From contig JAITPF010000037.1 in assembly GCA_031289585.1 (NCBI GenBank), positions 1-64,000 on the forward strand: 64,000 nucleotides of DNA, written 5' to 3'. Shown here piece by piece: positions 5,410 to 60,793 of this stretch (the stretch's first letter is position 1; each line of letters begins with the position of its first letter). The notes under the pieces are model-generated. The model was not told where the DNA came from. It did no database searches and saw nothing but the letters and a program-made list of their open reading frames with translations. This DNA comes from Endomicrobium sp. Its GTDB lineage: Bacteria > Elusimicrobiota > Endomicrobiia > Endomicrobiales > Endomicrobiaceae. The translations under genes and the position numbers were made by a program.

Positions 5410-5430
5410 AATCTGTTCATACTAATATGG
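5407..5430. repeat. Solo terminal repeat of the MITE-like family (tagaatctgttcatactaatatgg), overlapping the proB stop codon
   Basis: Near-identical to the left terminus of 2541-2787. Confidence 0.65.
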
Positions 5431-5461
5431 GGAAACATAACAGATTGCAAGGAGGGCAAGA

Positions 5462-5668: not shown

Positions 5669-5739
5669 ACCTGTTAATGAAAGTGAAGAAGTCAAAGCAG
5701 ATGAAAGCAATAGATGCCAGCGCTTAGTTAACTCTAGTA

Positions 5740-40022: not shown

Positions 40023-41471
40023 ATGAAGATGTTAAAGTTATTATTTGTTTTTGTGTTTAGTTTAACAATGATAAGAGCTGTTTACTGTGAAATGTTAACT
40101 TTGGACGATTATTTGGATATGGTTGTTAAAAGTAACAGTGAGCTCAAATCCGTACAGTCAAATATTGATGCTGTGAAAGGAAAACTTCCTGAAGTTGAAA
40201 AAGTTTATTGGTATTCTTTAAATGCAGGTATGAATTATCTTGATGATTACAGCGGGAGACCTTATAATCAGCAAGCCAGACTTAATAAAGTGACAAATTT
40301 CAACTATGATATAAGTTTAGAGAAGCAGTTTATAACGGGAACGCAGGTTTCTTTGGGTTTAAATGGTATTTCTGGTAAGCATAATTATGCATCGCCTGAT
40401 CCTAATAAAAACATAAACAACTATAACTTAAGCGACATAGCTCCTTTTGTGGAATTACAACAGTCGTTGTGGAAAGATATAAATGGCGGTGCTACAAAGG
40501 CAAGTATAGCAAAGGCGCGAGCGAACGCAAAGTCGGCTTTGTATAAGTTGGAATATAAAAAACAGAATATTTTGTTTAATACAAAGGTTGCATACTGGAA
40601 TTTATCTTATTCAAGAACAGTTATAGATTTTAGAAAATTATCTTTAGATAGAACAACAAAAATTTTGGATTGGAATCAGAAAAGATACAATATGGATTTA
40701 GCTGAAAAATCAGACCTGTTACAATCGCAGGCTGCTGTGAAATTAAGAGAATTAAGTTTAAAACTTGCTTATGAAGAAGAAAATAAATTGAACAGAGTAT
40801 TTAATCAGTTTTTAAATGTTAATGATGAAAAAGTTAGGCATGAAGTCGAAGAATTTAAAAATAAAGAAAATAATTTTAAAGATAATAAGACGCTTAACAG
40901 AAAAGGCATAAGAGCAGATGTTCTTGCTGCTTTAGAGGATGTTCAAAGTGCTTTGTATGATCAGATGTTTTCGAAAAAAAGTTTAGGGGCAGATTTGGTT
41001 TTAAGTGGGAAATATGCGCTTAATGGTGTTGAGCCTTCGTTTGATGACGCTGTTAAACATATAACAAATACTGATAAACCATCGTATTCTGTGGGTTTAA
41101 AATATATAGTGCCACTTAATTTTAAACTTAGAAAAACTATAAATAAAGGTTATGAATCGGCAAAAATTTCAGCGCAGAAATATGCTGAGCATGCTGCAAT
41201 TGGGGAAAATAATGATTGGCTTGAGCTTGTAGATAATTGGAACAATGCCAAAATAAGATTAGAGCTTGCTGTAGAAATAGAAAAAATACAACAGCAAAGG
41301 CATCAGGAAGATCAAAATCTTTTAAGTAAAGGAAGAAGTACAACCTATCAGGTTTTACAAGGTGAGCAGGACTTAGATGATGCAGCACTAAGTGTTTTAC
41401 AGACTATTTTAGAATTAATAAAAATATATGAACAAGCAGAAGCTCTTTATGGTATGAATGTCGAAGTTTAA
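40023..41471 (+). CDS. TolC-like outer membrane efflux protein
   Basis: Signal peptide, two TolC-type coiled-coil halves, ..RSTTYQVLQGEQDLDDAALSVLQTILELIKIYEQAEALYG. Confidence 0.88.
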   Translation: MKMLKLLFVFVFSLTMIRAVYCEMLTLDDYLDMVVKSNSELKSVQSNIDAVKGKLPEVEKVYWYSLNAGMNYLDDYSGRPYNQQARLNKVTNFNYDISLEKQFITGTQVSLGLNGISGKHNYASPDPNKNINNYNLSDIAPFVELQQSLWKDINGGATKASIAKARANAKSALYKLEYKKQNILFNTKVAYWNLSYSRTVIDFRKLSLDRTTKILDWNQKRYNMDLAEKSDLLQSQAAVKLRELSLKLAYEEENKLNRVFNQFLNVNDEKVRHEVEEFKNKENNFKDNKTLNRKGIRADVLAALEDVQSALYDQMFSKKSLGADLVLSGKYALNGVEPSFDDAVKHITNTDKPSYSVGLKYIVPLNFKLRKTINKGYESAKISAQKYAEHAAIGENNDWLELVDNWNNAKIRLELAVEIEKIQQQRHQEDQNLLSKGRSTTYQVLQGEQDLDDAALSVLQTILELIKIYEQAEALYGMNVEV

Positions 41472-41519
41472 TAAAGTGATAATTTTATAACTTTGTCATG
41501 ATCATCTCTCAATTAATAA

Positions 41520-41935
41520 GACATTTAAAGGTAATTCCAACGGGAATCCAGGTTGCAAAAGTTTTAAAGTGGATTCCTGTTGGAGCTTACCATCAAGTGT
41601 TTTAATTGGGGAAAGGAATGACAACAAAACATCAATGTCGTCATTGTGAGGAGGGACAAAGTCCCAACGAAGCAATCTGTGTTGTTGAAAGAGAAAGATT
41701 GCCACGATTGCTACGCAATCTCGCAATGACGGATAGAAATAAAAGAACAGATTGTCACAGCCCTTCGGGCTTGGCAATGACGGACAAAACATCGTTGTCA
41801 TTGCGAGGAGGGACAAAGTCCCAACGAAGCAATCTGTGTTGTTGAAAGAGAAAGATTGCCCGTTGCTTCGCAACTCGCAATGACGAAAAACGTGGATTCC
41901 TGCTTTCATGAGACGACAAGGTTACAAATTTTGAC
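41520..41935. repeat. Cluster of REP-like palindromic repeats (families A and B)
   Basis: tcgtcattgtgaggagggacaaagtcccaacgaagcaatctgtgttgttgaaagagaaagattgccacg occurs twice in tandem (about 41637 and about 41797). Confidence 0.9.
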
Positions 41936-41981
41936 TATTATAAACAATTAACATTTGAGGATAAGGGAAAAAGGAAAAAAT

Positions 41982-44900
41982 ATGAATTTAGCAAAATTGT
42001 CTATTAAACGTCCTACTTTTATTATAGCATTACTTATGGCAGTGCTTATTTTGGGAGTTGTTTCTTTTGGTAAGCTTAGTGTCAGGATGTTTCCGGATGT
42101 TGAGTTTCCGTATGTAATTATTATGACAAGTTATCCGGGCGCAGGTGTTGCAGAAATTGAACAGCTTGTCACAAAACCTATAGAAGACGCTTTAAGTGGT
42201 GTTTCTGGTCTTAAACATTCTGGTTCAGTTTCTCAGGACAACATGTCTGTTGTTTTTGGTGAGTTTGAGCTTTCAAAAAATCCTGATATTGCCACGCAGG
42301 AAGTAAGGGATAAAATAGCGCAAATAAGACTTACTTTACCTGAAGATATAAAAGAACCTGTTATAATGAAAGCTGATTTAAACAGTTTCCCTCTTGTTAC
42401 ATTAAGTTTAAAGTCTGAAAGTATGACTCCTAAAGAGTTATACGATTTTGCAGATGATGTTGTTTCTAAAGATTTAGCTCAGGTTTCAGGTGTTTCGCAG
42501 ATAAAAATTATAGGTGGATCAAAAAGAGAAATACATGTTAATGTGGATAAAAGCAAACTTAAAACACATGAACTTACTCTTACAACACTTGCTGCAAAAG
42601 TAAAATCTAATGCTTCAAATATTCCTGCTGGAAAAGTGAACAGAGGGCGTGAGGAAATAGCATTTAGAACTATGGGCGAGTTTAAGTCTGTAAAACAGAT
42701 AAACAATGTTGTTGTAAATTTTTTAGGAAATGACAGATCTGTTACGGTAAAAGATGTTGCAAAAGTTGAAGATAGTGTTGAGGCTGAAGTTTCAAGGGCA
42801 AGGCTTGATGTAAAAGAAGATGGGGAAATAATATATATGCCGTCTCTTTTATTGTCTGTTTACAGACAGGCAAAAGGGAATGATGTTGCAATTTCTGACG
42901 GGATAAAGAAAAAGATATCGGAAGCAAATGAGCGATATAAGAACTATGCCGGAACACCACATCTTACGATGATTTCAGATACTGCAAAGGGTGTGAGAAT
43001 GAATCTTGATAATGTAAAATCTACAATATTTGAGGGTATTTTTCTTGCCATTTTAGTTGTGTATTTCTTTTTGGGTAGCTGGCGTTCTACTTTTATTACA
43101 GCTTTAGCGCTTCCAAATAGTTTGATAGGTTCTTTTGTTTTTATGTATGTTTTTGGATTTAGCTTAAACGTTATTTCGTTAATGGCTTTATCTCTTGCAG
43201 TAGGACTTTTAATAGATGACGCCATTGTCGTACGTGAAAATATTTTCAGACATTATGAAGAGGGAGCAAATCCTGTAAAGGCAGCGATTGACGGTACAAA
43301 TGAAGTTACTCTTGCAGTAATTGCTACTACAAGTACTGTTATAGCTGTATTTTTTCCAGTTGCTTTTTTAAGTGGAATTATGGGACAGTTTTTTAGAGAG
43401 TTTGGATTGACGGTAGTTTTTGCAATGGTTATATCTATTATAGATGCTTTGACAATAGCTCCTATGCTTTCTGCTTATATTATTCCAGATCGTAATAAAA
43501 ATTCCCCAAAAAAATTTAAAACGGGAAAAATAGGGGAAACAGTTGTTAAACTTTTTAGAGCGTTTACAATTGGATGGTTTAATATAGTTTTTAGTTTTAT
43601 TGAGAAATTATATAGAGAACTAATTTCATTTATAGTAAAAAAAGATTTTAAATTTGGCAAACGGAAAATAAGTTGGAAATTTATAACGCTTGTTATTGCA
43701 GTGCTTGTGTTTTTCGGGACGATTGTAGTAGCAAAAAAGTATCTTAAAACAACATTTATGCCTACTTCAGAATGGGGTGAAATTAACATTACAGTTATAG
43801 CAAAACCTGGAACTTCGTTAGATCAGATGGACAAATATTCAAAACAGATTGAAGAGATAATTATGAATGATCCTAACATTGAACTTGTTTCTTCCTCTAT
43901 AGGTTCTGGTGATATGTTTACGACTCTTTCAAACCAGACAACTATGTATGTTAAAATGATACCAAACCAATTGAAAAGTGGATTTTTTGGCTTGTTTGGC
44001 AAATCTCAAAGAACTCGTACCACTTCAGAAATGAAAGATTATCTAAGAAAAGTTTTGAAAGATGAGTTTGGTGATGAGCTTGAGTTTTCAATTGTGAAGC
44101 AATCTATAGGTGGCGCAGAAAGCGAGTTTATAATACAACTTACTGGCGATGATATTGATGTTTTATATGACGCTGCAAAACAGCTTATGGATAGGTATAA
44201 AACAATACCTTATTTTGTTGATATACAGTCAAATTATAAACCTGGAAAGCCAGAAGTGCAAATACAAATGAATCCAAAAGAGATGGAAAATCTTGGTGTA
44301 AGTTCTGCTATAATTGGCAATGAAGTAAGAGCCATGATTGATGGTATTTTGGCTGGGAAATACAGAGAGAAAGGTCTTGAGTATGATATAAGGGTTAATT
44401 TCCAAGATAGTCAAAAAGACATAGTAAAGAGTTTTGACACTATATATGTAAATAATATTAATAATAAACTTGTAAAACTTAAAAATATTGCATTTACAAA
44501 AGAAACTTCTGGTCCTACGCAAATATATAGGGAAGATAGATCGCGTTATGTTTCTGTTGAAGGAAATATTGCCAGTGGCGGTACTATGGGTGAAATTGAA
44601 AAAGCGGCGGAAAAGATTTTTAATGAAGAAAAATCTGAACCTAAAAATTTGGAAAAATGGAAAAATATAGAGTATAAAGTTTCAGGAAATGTTGAAGAAA
44701 AGGGCAGTATGTTTAAAAGTATTGGTATAGCAGGAGCTCTTTCTATAGCTTTTATATTTATGGTTCTTGCAAGTTTGTATGAGTCTGTTATAACTCCTTT
44801 TACAATTATGACTGCTTTGCCTCTTGCAATTATTGGCGGTATTTTAGCTTTACTAATTTCAAATCAGCCTATTGATATGTTTACAATGATAGGGATGATA

Positions 44901-45284
44901 ATGTTGCTTGGTATCGTTGCAAAAAACTCAATTCTTTTAGTGGATTATATACAACAGCAAATGCGAAGCGGATTAAGTATAAATGATTCTATAGTAAAAG
45001 CTGGAACTGTAAGACTGCGTCCAATCCTTATGACGTCTTTTGCTCTTATTGCAGGTATGTTGCCAACGGCATTAGGACTTAGTGAAGTAGGAAAATTTAG
45101 AAAAGGTATGGGGATAGTTGTAATAGGCGGTATAATAAGTTCTACAATTCTAACTTTAATTGTTGTACCCGCAGTGTTTGAGTATATGGATAAATTTAGA
45201 CATTTCTTACGCAAGCTAACAGGCAGGCCAAATAAAAGGATGATTGATTATACACAAGAGCAGCTAAAAGAAAAAGATTTGTAA
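41982..45284 (+). CDS. RND-family efflux transporter permease (AcrB/MdtC-like)
   Basis: LSIKRPTFIIALLMAVLILGVVSFGKLSVRMFPDVEFPYVIIMTSYPGAGVAEIEQLVTKPIE; GLLIDDAIVVRENIFRHYE; FTMIGMIMLLGIVAKNSILLVDY. Confidence 0.95.
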   Translation: MNLAKLSIKRPTFIIALLMAVLILGVVSFGKLSVRMFPDVEFPYVIIMTSYPGAGVAEIEQLVTKPIEDALSGVSGLKHSGSVSQDNMSVVFGEFELSKNPDIATQEVRDKIAQIRLTLPEDIKEPVIMKADLNSFPLVTLSLKSESMTPKELYDFADDVVSKDLAQVSGVSQIKIIGGSKREIHVNVDKSKLKTHELTLTTLAAKVKSNASNIPAGKVNRGREEIAFRTMGEFKSVKQINNVVVNFLGNDRSVTVKDVAKVEDSVEAEVSRARLDVKEDGEIIYMPSLLLSVYRQAKGNDVAISDGIKKKISEANERYKNYAGTPHLTMISDTAKGVRMNLDNVKSTIFEGIFLAILVVYFFLGSWRSTFITALALPNSLIGSFVFMYVFGFSLNVISLMALSLAVGLLIDDAIVVRENIFRHYEEGANPVKAAIDGTNEVTLAVIATTSTVIAVFFPVAFLSGIMGQFFREFGLTVVFAMVISIIDALTIAPMLSAYIIPDRNKNSPKKFKTGKIGETVVKLFRAFTIGWFNIVFSFIEKLYRELISFIVKKDFKFGKRKISWKFITLVIAVLVFFGTIVVAKKYLKTTFMPTSEWGEINITVIAKPGTSLDQMDKYSKQIEEIIMNDPNIELVSSSIGSGDMFTTLSNQTTMYVKMIPNQLKSGFFGLFGKSQRTRTTSEMKDYLRKVLKDEFGDELEFSIVKQSIGGAESEFIIQLTGDDIDVLYDAAKQLMDRYKTIPYFVDIQSNYKPGKPEVQIQMNPKEMENLGVSSAIIGNEVRAMIDGILAGKYREKGLEYDIRVNFQDSQKDIVKSFDTIYVNNINNKLVKLKNIAFTKETSGPTQIYREDRSRYVSVEGNIASGGTMGEIEKAAEKIFNEEKSEPKNLEKWKNIEYKVSGNVEEKGSMFKSIGIAGALSIAFIFMVLASLYESVITPFTIMTALPLAIIGGILALLISNQPIDMFTMIGMIMLLGIVAKNSILLVDYIQQQMRSGLSINDSIVKAGTVRLRPILMTSFALIAGMLPTALGLSEVGKFRKGMGIVVIGGIISSTILTLIVVPAVFEYMDKFRHFLRKLTGRPNKRMIDYTQEQLKEKDL

Positions 45285-45799
45285 TTTAGATTGCCATAAT
45301 ATCACATATTTTTTACGAGTAGAGTAGAATATTATTATTGTAAATAAAAATATATACAATGCTATTGCAAAGTTATGCTTTAAGGGGCATAAAGTGAAGA
45401 ATACGGGAGTTCTACCTAACTTTGTGGTTTCAAAAGATTCTTTTTTGCGAAAAAAAATAGTAGCATTTTTTATTTTTATATGTGTGGCAGTAAATGAATT
45501 TGCCCCAAGCGCAATAGAAATAAGTAAAAATAGTTTGGTTTTAGTAATAATATTAACAATTCATAATGTAGTTTCAAAAATCTTCAAACAATGCAACAAT
45601 TTCTTTCAATTTTTTTCGGTGTCATTAAATGATTTGACACATAATTCTCTCACAATACTTTCAAATAAAATGACAAAAGATTTGCAAAAATTTTTATTGT
45701 CAAGCTTGAAGAGCTGTGGTAATGGTTGTTTTAGAAAAACGACATCATGGATGCTGCGTAAGTGAACACCTATGAGAAAAATGGATTTTAATGTAGTCA

Positions 45800-46200
45800 T
45801 TGACCATGTCATACCTGTGGAAGCTTAGCTTCAAACGTGTATCCAAGTTGCTGTAAGATGTTAGCTAACGTGGATTCTCGCATGCGTGGGAATGACATCG
45901 TTTTTGCTGTCATTGCGAGGAAGAACAAAGTCCTGACGAAACAATCTGTGTCGTTGAAAAAGAAAGATTGCCACGCCTACTTCGTAGGCTCGCAATGATG
46001 GACAGAAATAAAAGGAAAGATTGCCACAGTCCTTCGGACTTCGCAATGACAAAAAACGTGGATTCCCGCTGGAGTTTACCCTCGAATGTCCTTATTTTCG
46101 AGAGCGGGAATAACACTGCAAAAGAAAGAACAGATTGCCACAGTCCTTCTGGCTTGGCAATGATGGACAGAAATAAAAGGAAAGATTGCCATGTTCATAT
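45800..46200. repeat. Cluster of REP-like palindromic repeats (families A and B) directly upstream of the giant gene
   Basis: cattgcgaggaagaacaaagtcctgacgaaacaatctgtgtcgttgaaaaagaaagattgccacgcctacttcgtaggctcgcaatgatggac, repeated variants. Confidence 0.9.
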
Positions 46201-46234
46201 AAATAAAAAAAATAAAAAGCAGATGAGGAAAACA

Positions 46235-49200
46235 ATGAACCTGAAAGCAAAAATTTCAAAATACTTTGGAATCTACGATGGAAAAAGTGTTTTCACTAAA
46301 AGCATAGCAATTCTTGTTGTAGTATGTTTTATATTGAACGTAGTTAACTTGCCTGCTTTTGCAAGCACCAAAGATGATGAGTTAAGAAAAAAACAAATAA
46401 AAACAGAGCAAACAAACTCCGGCGTGTTATATCAGGGCGATCAGTCGTATGGATCAGTATCGTATATGCAGTTTCTAGAAGATAACACGGATATTGATGA
46501 GAATAATGCAATACTTGTAAAAAATGCAAATGGTAAATATGAAGCTAAAGGATATTGGGACCTCAAGACGCAGACAGCAAAGATTATAGGACCTGACGGC
46601 AAAGCTGTTGACAATGATACATACACAAATGTTGTAAAGAATAAGTTATACGGTGTAAAGAAAGAAGGAAATACGATACCTCAACGGACTGATACAGTAG
46701 TAGTATCAGCTATACCTCAAACCACCTTGCAATCTAGTGTACCTGAACAATCTGTTTCTGAAAGAACACCTGTGCCTGCCGTATCTCAACTAATCACGCA
46801 GTCTGCTGCATCACAATCACAAGCTGATTTATCTCAAGAGCAACCTGCTTCTGAAGTTATATCTATTGCGTCTCAAGAGCAATCTGTTGCTGAAGTTAGC
46901 GCAGAAGAAAAAGTACAACAGACTCTTAAAGCTTTAGCTGATAAGTCAAAATCAACAAAAAAAGAATTCATTGAAAAATCACAAAAAAACAAAAAATACG
47001 ATGAAGTAGTAGATGAACTTGTAAAACAGACAGGCTTAAGTAGAGAGGAAGTTGAAGCAGATCTTGCCAAGTTAAGTAAGACCCAGAGAAAAGGTGTAAT
47101 AGATGCATTAGCCAACTTGTTTGCACAAGGTAAGACAATAGTATTTTGTGCTGCGGATGCATTGGCTACTGTGCTTAATGCGACAAATAAAGGTCTTTTG
47201 GCATTTCAAGTAATACTTGCAGATGCTATAGCTGGAATATTTGTGAAAAATAATCAAGATTTAATAAGCGGAAAATCAAATCAGTTGATGATAAGTGCGC
47301 AGGCAATTCAGACAGTACTTGCCAAGTACGGACGGAAATATAACGGTTATAGCGCAAGTCTTGACAATGTAATAAACGCTTTAGGAGCTGGAGAGTCTGC
47401 AATATTACATGTAGGTGGTAACCACTTTATAACTATAACCAGGAATGAAGTTGGAACTTATACAATATCAGATCCAAATAAAGAATCAAAAACTGTAACA
47501 GCGGACAAATTGAAAACTGTAATGAAGTCTGAATATGGATTAAAAGAAAACGATAGAACAACAGTACTTGCAAAAGGAAACAAACAATTTAAAAACATTA
47601 AACCAATAAGCGATTTGTCAAAAATAACAGGAGCAGAAACACAGGAAGAAAAAGATAGAAAACAAAAAGGACTATATGATGCTATAAAAGCAGCTTATAA
47701 AGCTGGCAATATTTGGAGAACTGGTGGAGTAAAAGAACTAATTGATAACTATGGCGGTTTTGATGCTCTTTTAAATCAAAAATTTTCAAATGAAATAGCA
47801 GCAAGGATATATACGTTATTTGGCGATGATGCATATTCATTAATGCAAGAGCTTATATTTGGAAAAGGCGTGAATCTAAACCATCAACAGTCTGAAGAAT
47901 TTGCTGTAAAATATAATTTCTTTTTAAAATACAAAGCTCTTCCAGGACTTAACAAAATCCTTAATGAATCATCAACAATTTGCAATTATAGCGAAAAAGA
48001 GATTGCCGATTTTAAAAAACAAAGAGATCGATTAATTGGTGATATGAATAGTGAAAAAGAAGCATTAAAGCAATCTTTAGCGTGGTCATATACTATGGGT
48101 GTTATGGTTAAGGATGTTAAAATAGATTGGGCAAAGTATGGAATTGATCCAAATATGAAAGATGATTCTTACACTAGCAAAAAGTTTAATGCCTTGGTGG
48201 ACAAACTTTTTAATAGCTACGATGAAGCGGCTATTATAGCACTTATTGATTGGGTATATGATAACACTGCAGATGCTTCTATTGGATGGTACAATTCTTT
48301 TGAGAATAATGGTAAAAGACCGCAAGATTATAGAGATAATGCTAAAAAAGCAGTTCATAAGTATTTTAGTGAAACAAAATTTCAGTTACAAGAAGTTAAT
48401 AGAAAGTTAAATGTTGAAAACGCAAAAGAAGAAAAACAAATGGCGCTTGCAGGTTTGGATAAAGCTGCAAAAGAAATAGCTATTTTAAATGTAACAATTA
48501 CTATATTGGAACAATACAAAGGTTCTACGCTTTCCGGACAGATTGGACAAATTTTAACTACCAACAAAGTTAGTGTTCCTGGATTGCCAGCAGGCGACTA
48601 TTATCAAATGATTACCATTTCTGCTGACTGGTCTGGGAAAAACTCTACTATTAAGAGACAAGAATATGATCAAAATGGCAAACCTCTTTATAATAACGAT
48701 GGAAGTCTTCACTATGAAGAAATATCCATACCCGCTTATTCAATAACTGTAGAAAATTCAATAAGTACACAAGAAGGAAGTGTTGTTACTCGTTCTGATG
48801 GTAGTACGTATAAAGTTTTTGGTGTGGAAGGAAAGTTTGAAGGTCAAGATGTTATATGGGAATATAGAGGCGCTATATATGGCGGTACTTTCTATATGTC
48901 CGATTATGCAAATATATACCTAAGAGATGATACCAGTAGCGTTTATCAGGAAAAAGAGGATAAAGAAAAACCACCTCCTCAAAGCGCCAAATATTCAGGC
49001 GCAGCTCCTAGGAGAGACAACTGGACTAGTGCGATAATTGTTGAAGATGAAAATGGATACACAGCTACAGGAGCAGGCAACAGGATTACAGTTAAAAAGT
49101 CAGGTAGTAAATGGAAAGCTGAAATTGTAGGTATGGGTACAGAAGCTTTAACAGGATCATCTTTACAAATTGCCTCTTATGATTCAAAAGGTAATGCTTA

Positions 49201-52200
49201 CAGAATTTACCTTGATATAAAATTAGGATCTATGACTTATGCCGGAAGTTATTGGGCTGTTTCAAACGGTATTGTGTGGGGTTTCAACGCTGAAAAAAAT
49301 ACATCTTTGCAGGTAGAAGAGTATATTGAGAATATTATCAGGGCTCAGTTGTCAGCTGGAGAAGACAATGAAGGAAAAGTTGGAAATATACTAATAGATG
49401 GTACATACGATTATCAGACAGTTATTATGTATGGTGCTCCTTTTTCAGCCGGAGATATTCTAAATTCTATTCATTGTAGTGCAGAAGTAGAGATAAAAGC
49501 AGGATATGTATTCGATGCTACACAACAGGGTGATATTTATATTGCAACCATCAATGCAAGTACTACAATAATACTTAAGGCTGACAATAATGGTATGTTA
49601 TCTTTTTATGCGACTGAAGATATAAATGTAACTTTCAATTTAGCAAAAAATGAAGATGGTAGTTATGATTGGTTATTTAGCGACGATACTGGTTCGCAGA
49701 CAGCAATCATAAATCAAAATCAGAAAATATCTTTAGCAACATTGTTGAATAATACTGGTTTAAATATCAAAAATAACAAAGAAGTTAAAATGATAGCTGG
49801 TTATGAAGAGATTGGAAAAGATGAAAATGGAGATCCAATATATGGAGATCCTATATATGTTATTTTTGTGCCAGGGCAGTTAGTGTTGTCTGGTAATACT
49901 TTAGGAGAATACATTTTAGCAAAAGACGTATATGTAGATTTTGATGATGAAAATGGTTTTAGCTTAGACAACGATCAGTCCGGCAACTCTTTTAATGAAG
50001 GCAGAAACAAAGGATGTTTCAGAGCTGGCGCGATAATGGATATTACAAGAAGTATAGATGCTAAAGGAAATGTAACATATTACGCCAGTGTAACAGATGG
50101 AACTCTTGATGTTTATAATTTAGATGGTGTTCACGTACCTAAACCAAAAGATGATTCATCAGGTGATAATGAGAATCAAGAAGATGATGATTATGACGGT
50201 CCAAATTTCCACGGAAAGGTAGGTTCTGAACAAGACGACGGAGATGGCGGGCATATTTATGGCGGTATAACTGGTTATTTTACTCATATAAGCACTTCCG
50301 GACTTTCAAAGAAAACTTTGGGTAATTATTTATATGCAATTGGTTCTACATTGGATGAGGGTTCAGTGTTACCAGATGGAAGTAAGTCAAAATATGCTGC
50401 AGAAATTAAAAAAGATGGCAGTATAGACTTTAAAATGAGTGGTTGGGAGAAATTTAGAGATGGATTTATAGGTTTTTGGAGTTCTTTGGCTTTTGGGTTA
50501 GTTACTATACTTAGCCTTGGTGCTACTTTTTGGGCTACAAATATGAAAGGCATGGAGGCTGGCAGAGCTTGGGCGGTTAAAACATCTAGTTACTTTAGTC
50601 ATGTTTATGTAGATCCTGTTAAGATGGGTGCGCAAGTAGCGGTACAGGCGGCTGTTGGAGGTATTGTTGCACTGGCTGTGTTAGTTATAGCAATAGTTTC
50701 GATACTTTCAGCGCTTGTTACAGCAGGGTTTACTGCTATTGCGTGTATAGCAGCTCTTATTGCAGTGATAGGGGCGTTTACAGGCGCTAATAGTGTTATG
50801 GAAATGACGTCAAATGCTACAAAACTTTTTCAAATGGCAGCTAAAGAGAAAGATGCTAATAAAAAAGCAGAGCTGCTTAAAAACGCATTTATTAACTTGG
50901 GACTAGCTATATTAATAGGTGTGATTACAGCCTTTGGCGCGTCTGGCGCTGCAAGCCAAATTACAAAAGGTATTACTATTGCTGTAAAGAGTATGGCTAC
51001 ATTTGCATTAAGAGTTACAATTATGATAAGTGTAGGCGGGGTTTTGGGAGGATTTGTTATTCCGACAATTGTAAGTGCAATTCAAGGTAAAAAAGGAACG
51101 GATGCACTTACTTGGAATTGGGAAGGTTTTGTAACAGGACTGTTTTCTGGTGCTAGCCTAGGCATATCTTGGGGCGCTATGGCTGGTGATGTAACAGAAA
51201 CGTTTTCCAAAGTGGGAATGAAACAACTTCTTCAAGTTTTTACAGGTACCACAGGAAGTACATTAAAAATGGTAGGCAGATTTGTAGGCAATGTGCTATT
51301 AACTGCCTTAAATACATATATAACGTACCAAACAGCTAAAAGTTTGGTTAATAGTATAAGAACAGGTGATTTCGTAGGAGCAATATCAGCGTTGTATAGT
51401 CTCATTTCTTTGAATATTATATCGCAACTTGCCAAAGCTTCCGAGATGGCAAAAGAGGCAAAAGATTTGGCTGAAGCTGCAAAAGAAGTAGGCCTAGAAC
51501 TTGAAGATTTGGGGGAAGAAGCAGGCAATGCAGCTGGAAAAGTGATGAATGCGGCTGAAGCTGAAACAGGTGTTGTTGGGCAAGAAGCGGCGGTTGCAGC
51601 TGAAGAATTAACCGCTGGACAAAAATTAAAGATATTTGGCGCTTCTATATTTGGGTTTACAAGAAATGCCAGCGGTACTTTTGAGTTTAGTTTGGGCACA
51701 TTAGGAAGATTCTGGGGTCCGACTATTATAGGAGCTGTTGTTGGAATAGTGGTATCAAGTATTATTGTAGCAGCTCAACATAGAAAACCTAGCAAAAAGG
51801 ATATACTTGCAGGTTTTGGAATAGGTCTAGCATTAGGTTTTATTGTAGGGCGCATTGGTTCTATGGAAGACGTTAAGTCAATATGGGAATCTTTGAAAAC
51901 TTCAGTAAGAAAATCTATAGCTCCAATGTTTGGGTGGGTAAGGGATGCTGGACGCGGTTGGGTTTGGCAAGCTAGTACACTGGCAAGAGTTTGGGCGACT
52001 GCAGCTGTAACAACTGTTGTAGGAATGCTTTTGGTGTTTATTTTAAATTCTTTTGGCGTTACAGACTTACCGTTGTGGACTGGCGCTGTTGTTGGCGCAG
52101 TGTTAGGTTTTGGTATAGGTAATGCTATAGCAGTTGATGCGTACGGTCAAAGTTTAAAAGAAGGTGTTAAAACTATAGGAATACAGATAGCTGATTCGTT

Positions 52201-54823
52201 AAGACCTTCAAAATTATTTTATAGCGTAATAAGAATGTCACAAGGCATTGCAGTATTTAATTTAAAATTTATGTATGCCACGGGTCTAATAGATTTGATT
52301 TATAGAAAAATTTTTGGCGGATCTCTTGCAGATATAGGATGGCTAGTAAGTATTGATAAATTTGTTGGATTTAATTTTCTTGAAAAGGGTCTAAAATTGG
52401 TTAGCGACAAAGATATTAGTGACAAATATGGTGATAAAAGCCAAATTCGTAGCGATGATGGTGCGGTAAAAAATAAATACGAAACATTGTCTGGTATTCT
52501 TTATCAAAATGTCCAAATGTTATTTAATCCTTCTCAGATGTTTATATTTTTAGCTTTAGCTGGGATTCTTTTACCTATATTGGGTCCAGCTTTGCAGCAT
52601 TCTCCTATTCTAGGTTCGGTAATGATAACTCTTAATGGAATTGGCGAATTATCATTTATGCAAGGCAACGGAATACAAGGGCTTTATGAAGAGGGATTTA
52701 AAGAACAAGTTGCAGGTTCTGTTGGAAAATATATATTTGGTGATTCTCAAGCAGGACAAATTTTCCAAGAATTATTTGACAGTTCTTCAGAAGATGAAAG
52801 AAACGAAGACATGAAATTTTTGGCGTCTGCAAATATTGATGTTAATATGATTGAAAATGCTGTAAAAGGTATTGCTGCATCAACTACTGATCAAGAACTA
52901 AGCGAAAATCTGCGAAATGCTTTTAAAAACTTAAATATTCCATACGAAAATATAATGCCTTCTTCTTTTTCTATAGGTATGAGTGCTGATCAAATTACCA
53001 GAGGTATTCTAACTGAAATTGCTATAAATAAGGCAAGAATGAACAGTTTTTTTATTGATTTTGGAGAGCCTGGGAATTATAGTTGGTTATTTCTCGAAGA
53101 TGAAATACGAAATACTCTTGGCAATATTTTACTACCTAAGGATGCCTCTATAGCACAGCAATTAAATTTCTTGTATGCAAATGCAGCTATTATAGGAATA
53201 GGTATAAATATTAATCCTGATATAGGCATTACTGTGGAACAAGCTGCTGAGATTATGAATAAAGCGCAAGCAAAACAGTCAGATTTAGGTTTTATAATAC
53301 TTGCAAATTATGCTTCTGGCATTGCTGCTGAAAGAACATGGGATGGAATGAGTACGAGACAAAATTCTGTAATACTTGGAAATATTATACAAGGGATGTA
53401 TCAATCATCGCATATTTCGGATGGTTCTCTAATAGCTAGCTCTACGGCAGTTTACATGCAGTCTTTAATTAAATACTCGGATTTTTCTGGTAATCGTGAA
53501 ATGGAAGTAGCGATATCAAATATATTAGATAAAACGATTGCTATAGGGCAAGAAAAAGCTGATAAACTTTTTAGAGATACATATAGAGATAACGAAGGCA
53601 TAAAAGATGCAAGACGGATACAAGAATTGGAAGCAGCAGGCGTGAGAGTTATCGTAGAATATCAAGAAGGTGGTGAATTTGAAGATTTAGTGCCATTAAG
53701 AGAAGAAATAGAACTTACTGAGTTGAAGACAAAATATTCGCCAGAAACTATAAAACTCAATACTTACATTAATGATTTAATTAATCTGGTTGACAGTGGA
53801 AAATTAAGCGCTTTAGATTTTAGATTACTGCTAAGTTCTCGCAATGATATTTACTTTTTACAAACTGATTTAGAAACAAGAAGTAGATTATCTGGGTACA
53901 GAGAAACATTGCAAAATCTTGTCAAGCAAGATGCTAGAAGTACTATAGATCGCATTAATCAAGGCTTAAGAGATGGTAAATATAGCGCTCAATACGCAAG
54001 GAATATGAGAAATGAAATCATAGAGGCGTCTGGCATTTCGCATCATTTATTTGATTTTCAAGGAATAAGTATTTTAGATACATTAGTTGTTGGCGAATAT
54101 TTGCCTGTTGCCCAGAGTATTCAATCAAACTCCAGATTTATTAGTGTAGATAGGATTTCTCAGTATATTGATATTAACATTGCAGGAATAAGATCTTTGG
54201 TGGAAAATGATAGCGGATATAAAAGCTTGCGTACTGACAATACAGAATTAGCGAGGCTGCAAGCGATAGATAATGCTGTTGATTTATTACTTAAAACTAT
54301 TAATGACCCTGATATCTCTGAAGCTGATAAGAAGACTGTAATTGATGATGTTCTAAATGCTGCTATAATGCAAACATTATCAAGGGACACTGTGCAAAGA
54401 ATGAGGGATTTAAGCAATTCAGCACTTATAGCGCAAAAGGCAAAGTTAGCAATGGAAGCATTGCAAAGAGGAGATAATGCTGCTTATAAGGCTATTGTTG
54501 ATGATGGTTTTGTAAACGCTATACGACAAGCGATATTAGATAGAATTGATAGAGAAAGTTTAGACGAAGATACTACGCCTGCTCAACAGAGTGCATATAT
54601 GAATGCGAGAGCTGAAGTTATGGCAATGGGTTCTTTGCAGCTTATCACTCAATATTTTTCAGAAAGTGAAGTTAGATTACAACAAGAGGCTTCAAAAGAG
54701 TTCCAGAGAACCATAGATACTCAAATGAGAGCTTTGACTATTAAAATAGCCGAATTGGAAGCAAAGCAAGGTAGAACAGAAGAGGAAAACTTAGAGCTTA
54801 ACCGAAATAGAAGAACACAATAA
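46235..54823 (+). CDS. giant secreted/membrane protein (2862 aa from the corrected start): signal peptide, C39-like cysteine peptidase domain, beta-rich segment, multiple TM/glycine-zipper segments
   Basis: Corrected start MNLKAKISKYFG preceded by SD tgagga; signal AILVVVCFILNVVNLPAFAS; Cys-His-Asp set VFCAADALATVL / VGGNHFITI / SDPN; long Gly/Ala/Val-rich TM regions. Confidence 0.85.
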   Translation: MNLKAKISKYFGIYDGKSVFTKSIAILVVVCFILNVVNLPAFASTKDDELRKKQIKTEQTNSGVLYQGDQSYGSVSYMQFLEDNTDIDENNAILVKNANGKYEAKGYWDLKTQTAKIIGPDGKAVDNDTYTNVVKNKLYGVKKEGNTIPQRTDTVVVSAIPQTTLQSSVPEQSVSERTPVPAVSQLITQSAASQSQADLSQEQPASEVISIASQEQSVAEVSAEEKVQQTLKALADKSKSTKKEFIEKSQKNKKYDEVVDELVKQTGLSREEVEADLAKLSKTQRKGVIDALANLFAQGKTIVFCAADALATVLNATNKGLLAFQVILADAIAGIFVKNNQDLISGKSNQLMISAQAIQTVLAKYGRKYNGYSASLDNVINALGAGESAILHVGGNHFITITRNEVGTYTISDPNKESKTVTADKLKTVMKSEYGLKENDRTTVLAKGNKQFKNIKPISDLSKITGAETQEEKDRKQKGLYDAIKAAYKAGNIWRTGGVKELIDNYGGFDALLNQKFSNEIAARIYTLFGDDAYSLMQELIFGKGVNLNHQQSEEFAVKYNFFLKYKALPGLNKILNESSTICNYSEKEIADFKKQRDRLIGDMNSEKEALKQSLAWSYTMGVMVKDVKIDWAKYGIDPNMKDDSYTSKKFNALVDKLFNSYDEAAIIALIDWVYDNTADASIGWYNSFENNGKRPQDYRDNAKKAVHKYFSETKFQLQEVNRKLNVENAKEEKQMALAGLDKAAKEIAILNVTITILEQYKGSTLSGQIGQILTTNKVSVPGLPAGDYYQMITISADWSGKNSTIKRQEYDQNGKPLYNNDGSLHYEEISIPAYSITVENSISTQEGSVVTRSDGSTYKVFGVEGKFEGQDVIWEYRGAIYGGTFYMSDYANIYLRDDTSSVYQEKEDKEKPPPQSAKYSGAAPRRDNWTSAIIVEDENGYTATGAGNRITVKKSGSKWKAEIVGMGTEALTGSSLQIASYDSKGNAYRIYLDIKLGSMTYAGSYWAVSNGIVWGFNAEKNTSLQVEEYIENIIRAQLSAGEDNEGKVGNILIDGTYDYQTVIMYGAPFSAGDILNSIHCSAEVEIKAGYVFDATQQGDIYIATINASTTIILKADNNGMLSFYATEDINVTFNLAKNEDGSYDWLFSDDTGSQTAIINQNQKISLATLLNNTGLNIKNNKEVKMIAGYEEIGKDENGDPIYGDPIYVIFVPGQLVLSGNTLGEYILAKDVYVDFDDENGFSLDNDQSGNSFNEGRNKGCFRAGAIMDITRSIDAKGNVTYYASVTDGTLDVYNLDGVHVPKPKDDSSGDNENQEDDDYDGPNFHGKVGSEQDDGDGGHIYGGITGYFTHISTSGLSKKTLGNYLYAIGSTLDEGSVLPDGSKSKYAAEIKKDGSIDFKMSGWEKFRDGFIGFWSSLAFGLVTILSLGATFWATNMKGMEAGRAWAVKTSSYFSHVYVDPVKMGAQVAVQAAVGGIVALAVLVIAIVSILSALVTAGFTAIACIAALIAVIGAFTGANSVMEMTSNATKLFQMAAKEKDANKKAELLKNAFINLGLAILIGVITAFGASGAASQITKGITIAVKSMATFALRVTIMISVGGVLGGFVIPTIVSAIQGKKGTDALTWNWEGFVTGLFSGASLGISWGAMAGDVTETFSKVGMKQLLQVFTGTTGSTLKMVGRFVGNVLLTALNTYITYQTAKSLVNSIRTGDFVGAISALYSLISLNIISQLAKASEMAKEAKDLAEAAKEVGLELEDLGEEAGNAAGKVMNAAEAETGVVGQEAAVAAEELTAGQKLKIFGASIFGFTRNASGTFEFSLGTLGRFWGPTIIGAVVGIVVSSIIVAAQHRKPSKKDILAGFGIGLALGFIVGRIGSMEDVKSIWESLKTSVRKSIAPMFGWVRDAGRGWVWQASTLARVWATAAVTTVVGMLLVFILNSFGVTDLPLWTGAVVGAVLGFGIGNAIAVDAYGQSLKEGVKTIGIQIADSLRPSKLFYSVIRMSQGIAVFNLKFMYATGLIDLIYRKIFGGSLADIGWLVSIDKFVGFNFLEKGLKLVSDKDISDKYGDKSQIRSDDGAVKNKYETLSGILYQNVQMLFNPSQMFIFLALAGILLPILGPALQHSPILGSVMITLNGIGELSFMQGNGIQGLYEEGFKEQVAGSVGKYIFGDSQAGQIFQELFDSSSEDERNEDMKFLASANIDVNMIENAVKGIAASTTDQELSENLRNAFKNLNIPYENIMPSSFSIGMSADQITRGILTEIAINKARMNSFFIDFGEPGNYSWLFLEDEIRNTLGNILLPKDASIAQQLNFLYANAAIIGIGININPDIGITVEQAAEIMNKAQAKQSDLGFIILANYASGIAAERTWDGMSTRQNSVILGNIIQGMYQSSHISDGSLIASSTAVYMQSLIKYSDFSGNREMEVAISNILDKTIAIGQEKADKLFRDTYRDNEGIKDARRIQELEAAGVRVIVEYQEGGEFEDLVPLREEIELTELKTKYSPETIKLNTYINDLINLVDSGKLSALDFRLLLSSRNDIYFLQTDLETRSRLSGYRETLQNLVKQDARSTIDRINQGLRDGKYSAQYARNMRNEIIEASGISHHLFDFQGISILDTLVVGEYLPVAQSIQSNSRFISVDRISQYIDINIAGIRSLVENDSGYKSLRTDNTELARLQAIDNAVDLLLKTINDPDISEADKKTVIDDVLNAAIMQTLSRDTVQRMRDLSNSALIAQKAKLAMEALQRGDNAAYKAIVDDGFVNAIRQAILDRIDRESLDEDTTPAQQSAYMNARAEVMAMGSLQLITQYFSESEVRLQQEASKEFQRTIDTQMRALTIKIAELEAKQGRTEEENLELNRNRRTQ

Positions 54824-54826
54824 GAT

Positions 54827-57800
54827 ATGCAAAAAGTTCAATCAATATTTAAGATATTGCAAGATCCAAATTATACTAATCCTGACTTAACTCAAATGGC
54901 GCACTTGAATGATCAAGCAAAATTGGAGATAAAACGATTATTTGAAAGCTTTGCCACTGATTTGTGGAAAGATTTTGATGAATCAATATGGAATTTTGTA
55001 GCTTCACAACCTGATATATTTCAATTTTATACAAAATCGCTATCGCAAGATGCAATAGATACTATAGCTAGAAAATATTTAGGAAAAACCCCTGGCGCTG
55101 ATATTGATACTATAAAAACCCAAATTGCAAGTGGCGATATTGAGACGATGCGACAATGTATTAACTTGCAACTGATTTCTTTTAGTGAAATATTAAAGCC
55201 CTATGTTAACCAAAATAGTGAGGGTTTTAATCCATATCAATTTACGTTACAATTGAGAAAATCTATGATAGAAGCTGTTTTTGGAAATGGTAAGACTGAA
55301 GAACAATTGACATTTTCAGAGAAATTGGCATTAGATTTAAAAATATCAGAAATGGGATACGATATTCCACGATCGGATTATAGTAATATAAGGCAAGCGT
55401 ACGAAGGCGATAATGTTACAAAGTTTGGTGTTGGAATTCTGAGCGCTAATGAAGATAGAAACAGAAGTACCGCCAGACAGGTTCTTATGTTGTTTGAAGA
55501 TTTATTGGGCAGAGTTTCTGCGTTGTCAGCTGGTGGGGGTAAGTCATTTGTATATATATGGACGTATTCACAATGTTTTCATAATGGTAATAGTATAGGA
55601 GAATTTTTAGGAGCGCAAACAACAGATGCCGCGCAAATGATTGGTTCTGAGCAAAATGTATTTATGTGGAGGATGCTTGGTATTCAAACTGTTAATGGTG
55701 ATGAGAAATATAAACAAAATGCATTTGATGAACTTGCTGATGCTTATGATAAAACAACTGTTTCAGGTATAGAAGGTTTAAAAGGAAGGGTAATTGCATA
55801 TTCAATAGGGCAGAGAGGTTTTGTGGAGCTTCAGGCAAGGGTTGGCGCAAACGGCGCAAAATTAAATAATGCGCTTAGCAATACTGATGTAAGAGTTGCT
55901 GATGAAGCAGATGTTGCCGCATTGAGCAGAGTATCGTATATTATGGGAACGGGAGATGCCGTAGTCCCACAATACCAAGCGGATGATATAGTAGGAAAAT
56001 TAAAAACACTGCAAAGTGTTACATTTCAAGCTGAAGACAAAGAGTATAAAATACAACCAAATCCTACGGCAAAAACACAAGGCGACTTAGCAATAAATGA
56101 ATTTGCTATTATAGATGGTAAAATTGTTTGTGGAAGTTCTGAACTAGAAACTGCAATATTAGAAAAATTCAAATCATGGACACTGTTAGATTATATGCAA
56201 AACACAAATGTAACAAAATTGAGTGATATTAAAGGAAATACAGCATCTAACCTGAGTAATATTATGAGAGCATGGAATGTTTTTGCGGTAAGATTACGAG
56301 GTGGCGAGTCTGTTTCATTTGTAGATGGGCAGCCTGCATCTGTTGAAGCAGGTAGAAGGCAATCAAATACTACAGATCAAAGTTCTTCTTACAATGTTGC
56401 TTTAGTAGCTTTAGAAATTGAACGTTTAAAAGGGTTAAATCAAAGCACAAAAGGATTTGATATACACAATGTAAAAATGTCTGTAAGTTCTGGAGAATCT
56501 ACAATTTCGCAGATATTTAGTAGAGAACAAGGCACTACTCTTAATTGTGGAGGATCTGCAACGCTTGATGTTGCTAGAGAAGTTGCTCATGCGATATTTG
56601 GCGGTGAAGCTGTAGATATAGAAGCGTCATCAATGAAAATGGTGGGAGGACAACTGGGCAATAGATTTAAAGTAGAAAGTTGTAGTAAAACACAAGAAAT
56701 TATTAATTATGGAGTAACCCAAGCACAAGAATTTTTAAAAGCGGCTGTTGACGGTACCCTTAAAAAAGATAGTGTCGGTGCTGACATAGGTTTATTATTT
56801 GGTGCTATGGATATGGATTATAACATTCAGATAATGATAAATGCTTTAGCGCAGATTTACGCCGAAAACTTTAATGCTGATGAACGCGCTAAGATTGTCG
56901 AATCATTTACAAGCAATATTGAATTACATACAAAAGGTTATTCGATAAGCGAGATTAAAGATTGGATTGCTAATAATAGTGAATATGGTGTACGCCTAAA
57001 ACCATATCTAAATAAAATTCAGACTATTGATGCTGTTATTGCTGAAAATAGTCCTGAAGCTGTTTCTAAAATGGCAGGAAATAGAGGAATGCTTACATTC
57101 AGCAATCAAAGCGGTTTAAGAGGTATAGATTTTAAGAGTATAAATATGATAGTTGTTGATGGGCATAATTTTCCAAGCAGCGAATTGTTGCAAGCAATAG
57201 GAAGAGCTGGAAGAAATGAAGAATGGGGTAAAGACAAAACTAGCGTTACTGTACTTATGGACTTGCCTGCTATTACAAAGACGCTTGTTAGAATGAAAGA
57301 GGATGATAGTTATTTTAGAGAAAGGCAGAGTGGTTTGTTTGACAGAGTTAATAGAGACCTTAATGAGAATTTAAGAAAAGTAAATGAAGAAGGTACTAAT
57401 ATTGAAAGTAAGGATCTTTTAGAGCTTGTATCTGTTTATAAGTCCATGCAGTTGAAATCTGAATCTATTTTGTTTAAAGCAAGACAAGAGGCAATGTATA
57501 TACTTGTCAAAGAACCGCTAGCTGAAATGGCTGCAATTGCAAGAAGAAATAGCAATGTAAGAGATGCAGAGTATTTGGAAGATTTGTATAAAAAATCAAT
57601 ATATAATGACGAAAGTAGCCTTTTCCAAGACAGTAGTAAAGATGGTAATGTTGTTGCTGATCCGATGATAACTATGATGCAAATATATCATCAAGTATTG
57701 ATAACAGCGCAAGCCTATTTAACTACAGCTATGGAAAATACATCTGATTCGCTTATTAAACTTGAGTTTGTAAATAGACTGCAAGATATAAAATTGATGT

Positions 57801-60793
57801 TGGAAGAAGATGCTTTCAGTAAACTTGTAAAAGAAGCATCAACTAATGATAATTATTCTGACAGTACGTTTGCTCAAAGCAGCAGACGAGTTAATGCAAA
57901 ATTAGGATTCTCTCCTGCTCAAGATATTGCAAAGACACTAATCTCATTGAGTTCTAATTTACTTCCTACAAGATCAAACGATGGTGTGGGTATAGGACAA
58001 ACTCCACAGTCAATACTGATTGTTACAGATAATATGACTGATGCTCAAAAGGCAAGATCTCAAACGTTTATTGATGCTTTTAATGCTGATGCTGAAAATC
58101 CCAATGGACAGACATTGGCATATAAAAATTCTAGCGGAAGAGTTTGTTTAACTGATAAGGGAAAAGTTATTGCTGCTTTTGCTCAAAAAACAATAATGTC
58201 AGGTAATAGTGAGGCTTGGGCTGCATTCCTTAAGTGGTTGTTTAATTTAATGGGACTTAATTTAGATACGGCAAAACTATCTGAAGATCAATACGTTATT
58301 TCTGTATTAAAAGACTTAACAAACACATTATCGGATAAAGGAATTAAAAATCCTAGAGCAATTAGAAATTTTGTCAATATGCTTCCAGATGTTAATTACA
58401 ATGAAATTACTAGTATAGAGCAGTTGCAAAGAATAACTGAATTTGAATATTCTAAAGATTTTCAGGAAACTATTATTAAGATGAAATTTACAGATAAAGG
58501 ATGTCGATTTCCTTCTGCACAAGCAATGGCATTGGCAAGGGAAGGATTGCTTAAGAATGATAAAGCTGTAAGTGATCACTGGTGGTCAATGAGAGTAAAG
58601 GGAGAAGATTTAAACAAAGTATTAGTATCTGCTTATGATGAGTTTAAACAAAGAAGTAATGAAGTACAGGTTCAAGCGGTGATTATGCAAAGCAAGATTA
58701 CAGGGGAAGGTTGGGGACCTAACAATATGAAGTTAACGGCAATGTTTAAGGCTGCGTGGCTTAATCGTAGTTTGTTTAGAGGTTGGAGACTAAGATTTTG
58801 GAGAGATCCATCAGTTGACAGAGTTAATAATATTACAAAACCAGGAAGTAAACAATTTTTAAGTGAGTCATCTGTTGTTGATGACTCTACTTATTCTGAT
58901 TTCTCAAACCCTTTTGAGGATACAGTATCAACTGGTGGTAAAGTAACAGAGCAAAGCAATGACTCTGTTTCTGAACATCAAGATTCTGTTTTCGTTGACT
59001 ACTTTGCAAATCCTTTTGAGAACGAGGCAACAGAGCAAAGTAATGATTCTGATGACGGAAATATCAGTTTAGAAGAACCTACTGCTGCAACACGGCAAGA
59101 ATCCTATACAGTTAACAGAGAGGCTTTAATAGCTAGTATGGCTTTTGCCGGTATAGAAATAAATGCTGATACAGAGAAAGGAATAGATGCATTGCAAGCT
59201 CAAATTCAAAATATGTCAAAAGCAGATACAGAGAAAGTATTTGGAACAAATATTATATCCGTCAATCAAAGCGGCATATCGTTTGGGGATGCTATTAAGG
59301 ATGCGCCATCAAAAAAATCTGTATTCTTAGGGGTGGGATTAGGTGCAACAGTAGGCACTATAATAGGTGGGGTATTGGGTCTTGGTGCAGGTGCTTTAGT
59401 AGGGGCAATGATAGGAGCTGCTATAGGAGGACTTTTACTTGCACTAGGAGGTAAAACATTACATTCTTATTTAAACGTAGATTTTCTTAGCGAATTTACA
59501 GTAATGGATGTAAATAAGTTTGCAAAGATACCATTGTTTACAAAACTAGTAAAAAATGGAACGCTAGATTTTTCAGATGATGAAACACACAAACATTTTA
59601 GTGCATCTAGGTTAAGAGATGCTATTAATATGAAGAAAGATGCTGAGAAAATTCTTATTATAGGCAAAAAAAATTGGGAGACGATAATTGAGTTTAAGGA
59701 AGAGATAATTGAGAAAGAAATTGAAAGTCCGGAATTTTTACGAGAACATAAAAGAAAAGATGGTGAAGATGATAAGCAATGGGAAGAAAGAAGACTTCAA
59801 GAAGCAAGAAGAGAATTTAGTTGGACATTAGCAAAAGTTGGAGGGCTTATTGAACGTTTGAAATTTGGAGGTAATGAAAATCAAAAGCAAAAACTGTTTG
59901 CAGTTTTGTTTGGTAGTTTTAGAATTGACTACAAAACTATTTTGACGAGATTTAATAATGTTCGACAATCTGCAAATGTTATATATGACGATATTCCATT
60001 ATTTGCGTTAAATGATCAAGATGGCGATTTATTTGATAAAGATAATAAACCTACGCAGAAATTTTGGGATAAATATTCAACAATAGCTTCAATAGAACAA
60101 AAGATAGATGATGAAGTAGGAGTAGAAAATGCCGGACGAGAATTATTAGGTAAAATGGCGGAAGGCTTTACAAAGCCTCAAGACTTAAACAGTGCAGTAG
60201 TAAAAGCATTGTTATTGTTTGAGGATAGAGCTGCTATGGAAAAAAAATATCTCGGATTAGATCCAGGAGCAAATTATACAAGGCAAGATATAGCTAAAGC
60301 GGCATATAAATTATATAGCCAAGCATTAGGACTGTATGCAGGAACAGACCCTATAGATAAACGAATATCTTTGGATCAATTACATCAAGAATCAGAGATA
60401 ATAAGAGTAGTAGCTGATATGTTGATGGCTATGAAACTCAGCAGAGATGGCGAACTAGTGTCATTGATAAATAAAAAGCAACTTGATATTAAGGATGTAT
60501 CAAGAATACAAGAGTTGCTAGAGTTAAATACTAAGCCAAATAGAAATGTATTTCTAGATGTGTTAAGTACAGGAGTTACAACAAGTAAAGAAGGAAACCC
60601 TCAATTATTTGAAATAGATATGAGTAAGCTAAAAACTGCATTAGAGACAGAACATGCTAGCGAAAGAGAATTGTTAGCAGCAAATTCTAATGATTTGTTA
60701 CCTCTGTTAAATGAAGGAAAGAGAGGAGAGAAAGAACGTAAAACTTTGTTAATGGAAATAAGAGATGTAAGAGCAGTAGCGAAAGCAGCATAA
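54827..60793 (+). CDS. giant protein (1988 aa) with SecA/SF2-helicase-like ATPase core and C-terminal glycine zipper; same frame as the preceding ORF
   Basis: SAGGGKS (55526-55546), VADEADVAAL (55901-55912 DEAD), GGSATLD, GLRGIDF...VVDGHNFPSSELLQAIGRAGR (ends 57214); GVGLGATVGTIIGGVLGLGAGALVGAMIGAAIGGLLLALGG. Confidence 0.8.
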   Translation: MQKVQSIFKILQDPNYTNPDLTQMAHLNDQAKLEIKRLFESFATDLWKDFDESIWNFVASQPDIFQFYTKSLSQDAIDTIARKYLGKTPGADIDTIKTQIASGDIETMRQCINLQLISFSEILKPYVNQNSEGFNPYQFTLQLRKSMIEAVFGNGKTEEQLTFSEKLALDLKISEMGYDIPRSDYSNIRQAYEGDNVTKFGVGILSANEDRNRSTARQVLMLFEDLLGRVSALSAGGGKSFVYIWTYSQCFHNGNSIGEFLGAQTTDAAQMIGSEQNVFMWRMLGIQTVNGDEKYKQNAFDELADAYDKTTVSGIEGLKGRVIAYSIGQRGFVELQARVGANGAKLNNALSNTDVRVADEADVAALSRVSYIMGTGDAVVPQYQADDIVGKLKTLQSVTFQAEDKEYKIQPNPTAKTQGDLAINEFAIIDGKIVCGSSELETAILEKFKSWTLLDYMQNTNVTKLSDIKGNTASNLSNIMRAWNVFAVRLRGGESVSFVDGQPASVEAGRRQSNTTDQSSSYNVALVALEIERLKGLNQSTKGFDIHNVKMSVSSGESTISQIFSREQGTTLNCGGSATLDVAREVAHAIFGGEAVDIEASSMKMVGGQLGNRFKVESCSKTQEIINYGVTQAQEFLKAAVDGTLKKDSVGADIGLLFGAMDMDYNIQIMINALAQIYAENFNADERAKIVESFTSNIELHTKGYSISEIKDWIANNSEYGVRLKPYLNKIQTIDAVIAENSPEAVSKMAGNRGMLTFSNQSGLRGIDFKSINMIVVDGHNFPSSELLQAIGRAGRNEEWGKDKTSVTVLMDLPAITKTLVRMKEDDSYFRERQSGLFDRVNRDLNENLRKVNEEGTNIESKDLLELVSVYKSMQLKSESILFKARQEAMYILVKEPLAEMAAIARRNSNVRDAEYLEDLYKKSIYNDESSLFQDSSKDGNVVADPMITMMQIYHQVLITAQAYLTTAMENTSDSLIKLEFVNRLQDIKLMLEEDAFSKLVKEASTNDNYSDSTFAQSSRRVNAKLGFSPAQDIAKTLISLSSNLLPTRSNDGVGIGQTPQSILIVTDNMTDAQKARSQTFIDAFNADAENPNGQTLAYKNSSGRVCLTDKGKVIAAFAQKTIMSGNSEAWAAFLKWLFNLMGLNLDTAKLSEDQYVISVLKDLTNTLSDKGIKNPRAIRNFVNMLPDVNYNEITSIEQLQRITEFEYSKDFQETIIKMKFTDKGCRFPSAQAMALAREGLLKNDKAVSDHWWSMRVKGEDLNKVLVSAYDEFKQRSNEVQVQAVIMQSKITGEGWGPNNMKLTAMFKAAWLNRSLFRGWRLRFWRDPSVDRVNNITKPGSKQFLSESSVVDDSTYSDFSNPFEDTVSTGGKVTEQSNDSVSEHQDSVFVDYFANPFENEATEQSNDSDDGNISLEEPTAATRQESYTVNREALIASMAFAGIEINADTEKGIDALQAQIQNMSKADTEKVFGTNIISVNQSGISFGDAIKDAPSKKSVFLGVGLGATVGTIIGGVLGLGAGALVGAMIGAAIGGLLLALGGKTLHSYLNVDFLSEFTVMDVNKFAKIPLFTKLVKNGTLDFSDDETHKHFSASRLRDAINMKKDAEKILIIGKKNWETIIEFKEEIIEKEIESPEFLREHKRKDGEDDKQWEERRLQEARREFSWTLAKVGGLIERLKFGGNENQKQKLFAVLFGSFRIDYKTILTRFNNVRQSANVIYDDIPLFALNDQDGDLFDKDNKPTQKFWDKYSTIASIEQKIDDEVGVENAGRELLGKMAEGFTKPQDLNSAVVKALLLFEDRAAMEKKYLGLDPGANYTRQDIAKAAYKLYSQALGLYAGTDPIDKRISLDQLHQESEIIRVVADMLMAMKLSRDGELVSLINKKQLDIKDVSRIQELLELNTKPNRNVFLDVLSTGVTTSKEGNPQLFEIDMSKLKTALETEHASERELLAANSNDLLPLLNEGKRGEKERKTLLMEIRDVRAVAKAA

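Follow-up and report, generated by a model that had tools for sequence, protein, structure and literature searches.

Very large proteins are frequent in Elusimicrobiota (PMC11573180), giant ORFs have been described in Omnitrophota (PMC10066038), and giant genes have been treated in bioRxiv work by West-Roberts et al. 2023, as cited in PMC12057145. Within Elusimicrobiota, the genus Endomicrobiellum comprises all characterised flagellate endosymbionts of its family and shows progressive genome erosion (PMC11257099), while in the trichonymphae genome pseudogenes interrupt many pathways (PMC4505116). The window, by which we mean the whole 64-kb stretch of DNA analysed here, comes from a 1.28-Mb draft genome in 49 contigs that lies within Candidatus Endomicrobiellum (Elusimicrobiota; endosymbionts of termite-gut flagellates), and it carries, in two ORFs, a giant gene whose protein resembles the huge proteins (>5,000 aa; PMC11573180) of the same phylum and the Omnitrophota giant ORFs (PMC10066038) in its size, its membrane helices and its few known domains. 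It differs from both in that neither account mentions a SecA-like or C39-like core, the Omnitrophota ORFs being compared by description only. Similar kinds of domain also occur among the effector domains of Amoebophilus, a protist endosymbiont, but there, again compared by description only, they are named as effectors and do not form one fused polytopic giant. Outside West-Roberts et al. 2023, which lay beyond the literature search, no published description of a SecA-like core in giant proteins was found, and the giant SecA-fused protein family appears to be undescribed.

The initial annotation had proposed a single reading frame interrupted by one stop codon, and the sequence again gave the same picture: the ORFs listed as 45968..54823 (TTG start) and 54827..60793 (ATG start) share a frame and are separated by one TAA and one codon, the junction reading CAA TAA GAT ATG. 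From 46235 to 60790 there is no in-frame stop besides the TAA at 54821-54823, whereas base composition would lead one to expect ~400 stops by chance in the 4,853 codons from 46235. The start at 45968, on the other hand, had to be abandoned, because this TTG sits inside a repeated intergenic element, which accounts for the spurious upstream extension of ORF1, and because the ATG at 46235 has an AGGA 5 nt upstream and opens an N-terminus (MNLKAKI..) that is kept in relatives at the same locus. The repeated element, with AAAGATTGCCACAGTCCTTC, is present in five near copies in the window, where none is expected by chance. The features of the locus are as follows.

22301-22371, 41747-41766 and 45861-46200 of the window: repeated intergenic element, containing AAAGATTGCCACAGTCCTTC
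40023..45284, + strand: TolC-like and AcrB-type RND pump genes, directly upstream; syntenic anchor of the locus in the genus
46235..54823, + strand: ORF1, first part of the interrupted giant gene, 2,862 aa; signal sequence, C39-like domain, membrane region and helical arm
46235..46363, + strand: Sec-type signal sequence or signal anchor, residues 1-43; hydrophobic segment 24-42, conserved start
47102..47584, + strand: C39/papain-like domain, ~residues 290-450; Cys305, His397 and Asp413 invariant
50663..52594, + strand: multi-pass membrane region, residues 1477-2120; about nine hydrophobic segments by hydropathy
54821..54823, + strand: interrupting in-frame TAA, absent from G070 and G188, whose frames read through the position
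54824..58273, + strand: mosaic segment with nearest relatives G070 and G188 (other genera); right edge approximate
54827..60793, + strand: ORF2, remainder of the giant gene, 1,988 aa; SecA-like ATPase, glycine-zipper hairpin and conserved C-terminus
55442..57742, + strand: SecA-like ATPase core, subtype B, residues 207-973 counted from 54824; from motifs, profiles and family fold
55532-55546, 55901-55912 and 57191-57214, + strand: ATPase motifs, respectively Walker A GGGKS, DEAD and QAIGRAGR
59321..59446, + strand: glycine-zipper hydrophobic hairpin, residues 1500-1541 counted from 54824
60083..60793, + strand: conserved C-terminal region, ending in RAVAKAA

The N-terminal half shares with Peptidase C39 and PCAT-type peptidase domains a Cys-His-Asp set and a papain-like fold. 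The catalytic Cys, His and Asp of Peptidase C39 are present and invariant among the copies aligned, and Pfam PF03412 matches the domain with E=3e-4 at 21.0 bits, just below the cut-off of 22; it could be modelled only poorly (pLDDT 55), and the Foldseek matches at the top of the list are mostly papain-fold proteases (PCAT1, ComA), none of them with E<0.01. The domain departs from the PCAT type in this sub-cut-off score, in a long insertion after the Cys and in its position behind a signal sequence, in a protein without an ABC transporter domain. In the membrane region that follows, the pattern of hydrophobic segments is similar in three intact relatives. If the signal sequence is cleaved and the number of crossings is odd, the ATPase half would be cytoplasmic, as expected of an ATPase, a topology predicted from hydropathy.

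The proposal of a SecA/SF2-like ATPase in ORF2 is supported by the predicted fold of a relative's core. The SF2 motor features (Walker A, DEAD/DExH and the motif VI arginines) are all present in the window ATPase, which iterated profiles seeded with the relatives' ATPase reached at E ~6e-51 in round two, before it had passed the inclusion threshold. When the core of a relative was modelled (pLDDT 75), the top 21 Foldseek matches in the PDB were all SecA or SecA2 (best E=2e-11, TM-score ~0.4), with other SF2 helicases ranking below them. Shared with SecA and SecA2 are the order of the SF2 motifs, a long insertion that follows motif II of the DEAD/DExH motor and, by prediction, a helix of 47 residues after the second motor domain; in contrast, identity is 10-12%, the ATPase is fused within a giant membrane protein, and the genome encodes a separate, ordinary SecA elsewhere. 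No Pfam SecA family matched the window protein, even with E allowed up to 10, or its relatives, with E up to 1, and hhalign with the genome's own SecA returned E=0.01 with a probability of 4%. Given the TM-score and the unmatched Pfam models, the ATPase is called SecA-like on its predicted fold; the full SecA fold, with two motor domains, a preprotein cross-linking insertion and a long scaffold helix, is no more than suggested by the model, and SecA identity itself would go beyond the evidence. At the other end of ORF2 (window 60764-60793) lies a short tail of a kind (RAVAKAA, AVAAAA or ALAQAA; AVAxAA) that ends many giants of the phylum and is perhaps a recognition signal.

Apart from its TAA, the window gene is homologous over nearly its whole length, including conserved N- and C-terminal regions, to a giant SecA-fused family. 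A search with an 18-row profile found the ATPase core in 44 of the 342 Elusimicrobiota genomes, which represent 24 of the 100 genera, typically within ORFs of thousands of codons (maximum 18,984); those with both ends seen include G228 (3,744 aa), G176 (5,692 aa) and three copies of the genus itself. Between intact copies of relatives, overall dN/dS is 0.13-0.29, so these copies are proteins under purifying selection. Searches of NCBIfam and of PDB sequences yielded nothing useful for naming the family, and Pfam is nearly silent even for giants of other genera. A first scan of genome contigs with ORF2 as query found no relative, because the window ATPase belongs to another subtype, whereas a scan with the relatives' ATPase alignment did recover them. 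In one genome (G168:C16, L131) a second ATPase copy adjoins overlapping ORFs in another frame and may be frameshifted. A giant-gene fragment of the Endomicrobiellum type was also seen on a 7.7-kb, probably mis-binned contig, JAISGP010000049.1 (L066), of a Lachnospiraceae MAG.

In the genus, represented by 43 species genomes (0.2-1.4 Mb), the giant gene occurs intact, frameshifted, singly stopped and as remnants, a decay series within Endomicrobiellum. At the same locus, behind an RND pump gene, it is, or can be read as, one ORF in three species, namely G020 (5,510 aa), G009 (5,156 aa) and G026 (5,164 aa); the G020 contig starts just upstream of the gene, so that its synteny with the RND pump falls outside the contig. 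The G031 copy is uninterrupted up to its contig end but at a different locus, and that of G024 is open over the extent of its contigs. G027 carries a frameshift at a different place from the window TAA, G005 and G036 retain only terminal remnants beside the pump gene, and G019, G017, G061 and G023 hold fragments, mostly with stops. In several Endomicrobiellum copies the RND pump adjoins and precedes the giant gene. Elsewhere, pump genes come after the giant ORFs of G133 (18,984 aa; L080-L082, L089) and G070 (7,805 aa; L077-L078), and none was seen beside the gene within the flanks read in G031, G104 and G157. Between pump and giant gene the window has a small ORF (45394-45765) of 123 aa, compared with 203-235 aa in relatives (L106:6481-7119), which has no Pfam match and is possibly also decaying.

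The first half of the relatives aligns to ORF1 and their C-terminus to ORF2 residues 1398-1989, the nearest same-locus copies being ~30-40% identical to the window gene, while the ATPase is ~50% identical to G070 and G188, which belong to other genera of the same family and share the window's ATPase subtype. ORF1 product residues 1646-2828 correspond to G070 residues 3823-5064 and ORF2 product residues 1-1209 to 5058-6237, both within one ORF of 7,805 aa; the G188 counterpart has 7,177 aa. With an X placed at the stop, the alignment to both crosses the junction without a break, and the ancestral state was therefore a single gene. These continuous homologues, together with the single ORFs of 5,156-5,510 aa, support the earlier suggestion of an ancestral frame of ~14.6 kb joining a secreted C39-like/membrane half to a SecA/SF2-like ATPase half. 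Homologues encoded as two genes at the junction point were looked for in the relatives and not found.

In the ATPase tree the window gene falls in subtype B with G070, G188, G133 and G295, whereas the other Endomicrobiellum copies are of subtype A; its N-terminal half and C-terminus, however, are nearest to these Endomicrobiellum copies. Since its ATPase subtype differs from that of its locus neighbours, the window gene is a mosaic, whose left switch is near the TAA, somewhere from ~residue 2650 of ORF1 to the beginning of ORF2. The simplest reading of these sequence relationships would be module exchange by recombination, the alternative being that an old ATPase subtype was retained. It has been reported that competence genes are expressed in these symbionts (PMC8809381).

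The weak Shine-Dalgarno that had been remarked on before ORF2 was confirmed, the best candidate being AAG at 13 nt, and none was found at its ATG or at any of the 19 in-frame start codons that follow. This absence is weak evidence, since 9 of the 19 other genes or ORFs that were sampled in the window do no better than ORF2. Apart from the TAA, no second disabling change was found in the 14.6 kb. If the gene is assumed to have been neutral since the stop arose, the lack of a second nonsense change limits neutral divergence since then to ~0.1% (median) or ~0.5% (95%), so either the lesion is very recent, strain variation or error included, or both halves remain under selection. Were selection to have ceased with the stop, the stop would date back less than ~0.5% neutral divergence and be very recent.

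The reading we prefer, with a probability of about 0.6, is that, in an endosymbiont genome undergoing erosion, one in-frame nonsense codon has cut a single ancestral giant gene and that the full-length protein is probably not made. The stop would most likely represent early gene erosion of the ordinary kind, being real and disabling, with little or no translation of ORF2 probable. That this locus is eroding in other members of the genus speaks for such a recent inactivation. Against decay, several window genes likewise lack a strong Shine-Dalgarno, and both halves have kept their catalytic motifs with a single lesion, a state that would also fit two functional polypeptides or an assembly error. 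The main rival is a working two-piece protein, produced by gene fission, in which termination-reinitiation at the ATG, 3 nt past the TAA, yields ORF2 and the membrane and motor subunits assemble. Spacing between TAA and ATG is close enough for this, the cut separates the membrane region from the motor core, the C39-like and ATPase motifs have all survived, and the 14.6 kb hold no other disabling change; nevertheless, ORF2 is without a ribosome-binding site, none of the relatives examined is split at this point and sister species are losing the locus, which leaves such a fission possible but unlikely.

It is rather improbable that the TAA is a draft-assembly error or a variant of a minority strain. 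The lesion affects one codon only, everything else is intact and the draft genome is fragmented into 49 contigs, as would suit this view, but there is no direct evidence of error, and sister species carry independent lesions at this locus, so that the lesion is likely to be real. Readthrough of the TAA, programmed or frequent, to give the full-length protein, which had been raised in the initial annotation and would accord with one frame and one stop, was not upheld and is very improbable, since TAA is the commonest stop (15 of 22 genes sampled in the window), relatives do not have the stop, so that it is not conserved, and no structured RNA element was detected at it, the surrounding RNA having, if anything, less structure than shuffled sequences (z=+1.3). 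Two originally separate genes lying in frame by chance would explain the ATG at the start of ORF2, but this origin was rejected on the strength of homologues that form one ORF and align without a break across the junction.

Under the preferred reading of recent inactivation, the ancestral product would have been a polytopic membrane protein that carried a C39/papain-like domain at its N-terminus and, further on, a SecA-like motor. In the intact relatives, a cytoplasmic, ATP-driven motor may push a polypeptide, either its own or that of a partner, into the envelope or across it, and the polypeptide that is moved may be processed by the peptidase-like domain in the exported N-terminal part. Domain signatures and the order of the parts are observed, whereas substrate, direction and activity in this scheme are conjecture. 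A bolder version is decidedly doubtful: it makes of the family an autonomous machine for protein translocation at the envelope, in which one giant protein supplies the SecA-type motor, the membrane domain and the processing peptidase, and of the window gene a natural split whose membrane and motor subunits still cooperate. The chief value of the locus lies in the intact family to which it leads, giant membrane proteins with a fused SecA-like motor that occur in a quarter of the sampled Elusimicrobiota genera. Huge proteins that are otherwise unannotated thereby gain a common, testable core, and the decay series within Endomicrobiellum allows one to ask what role the giant protein had before these bacteria entered flagellates.
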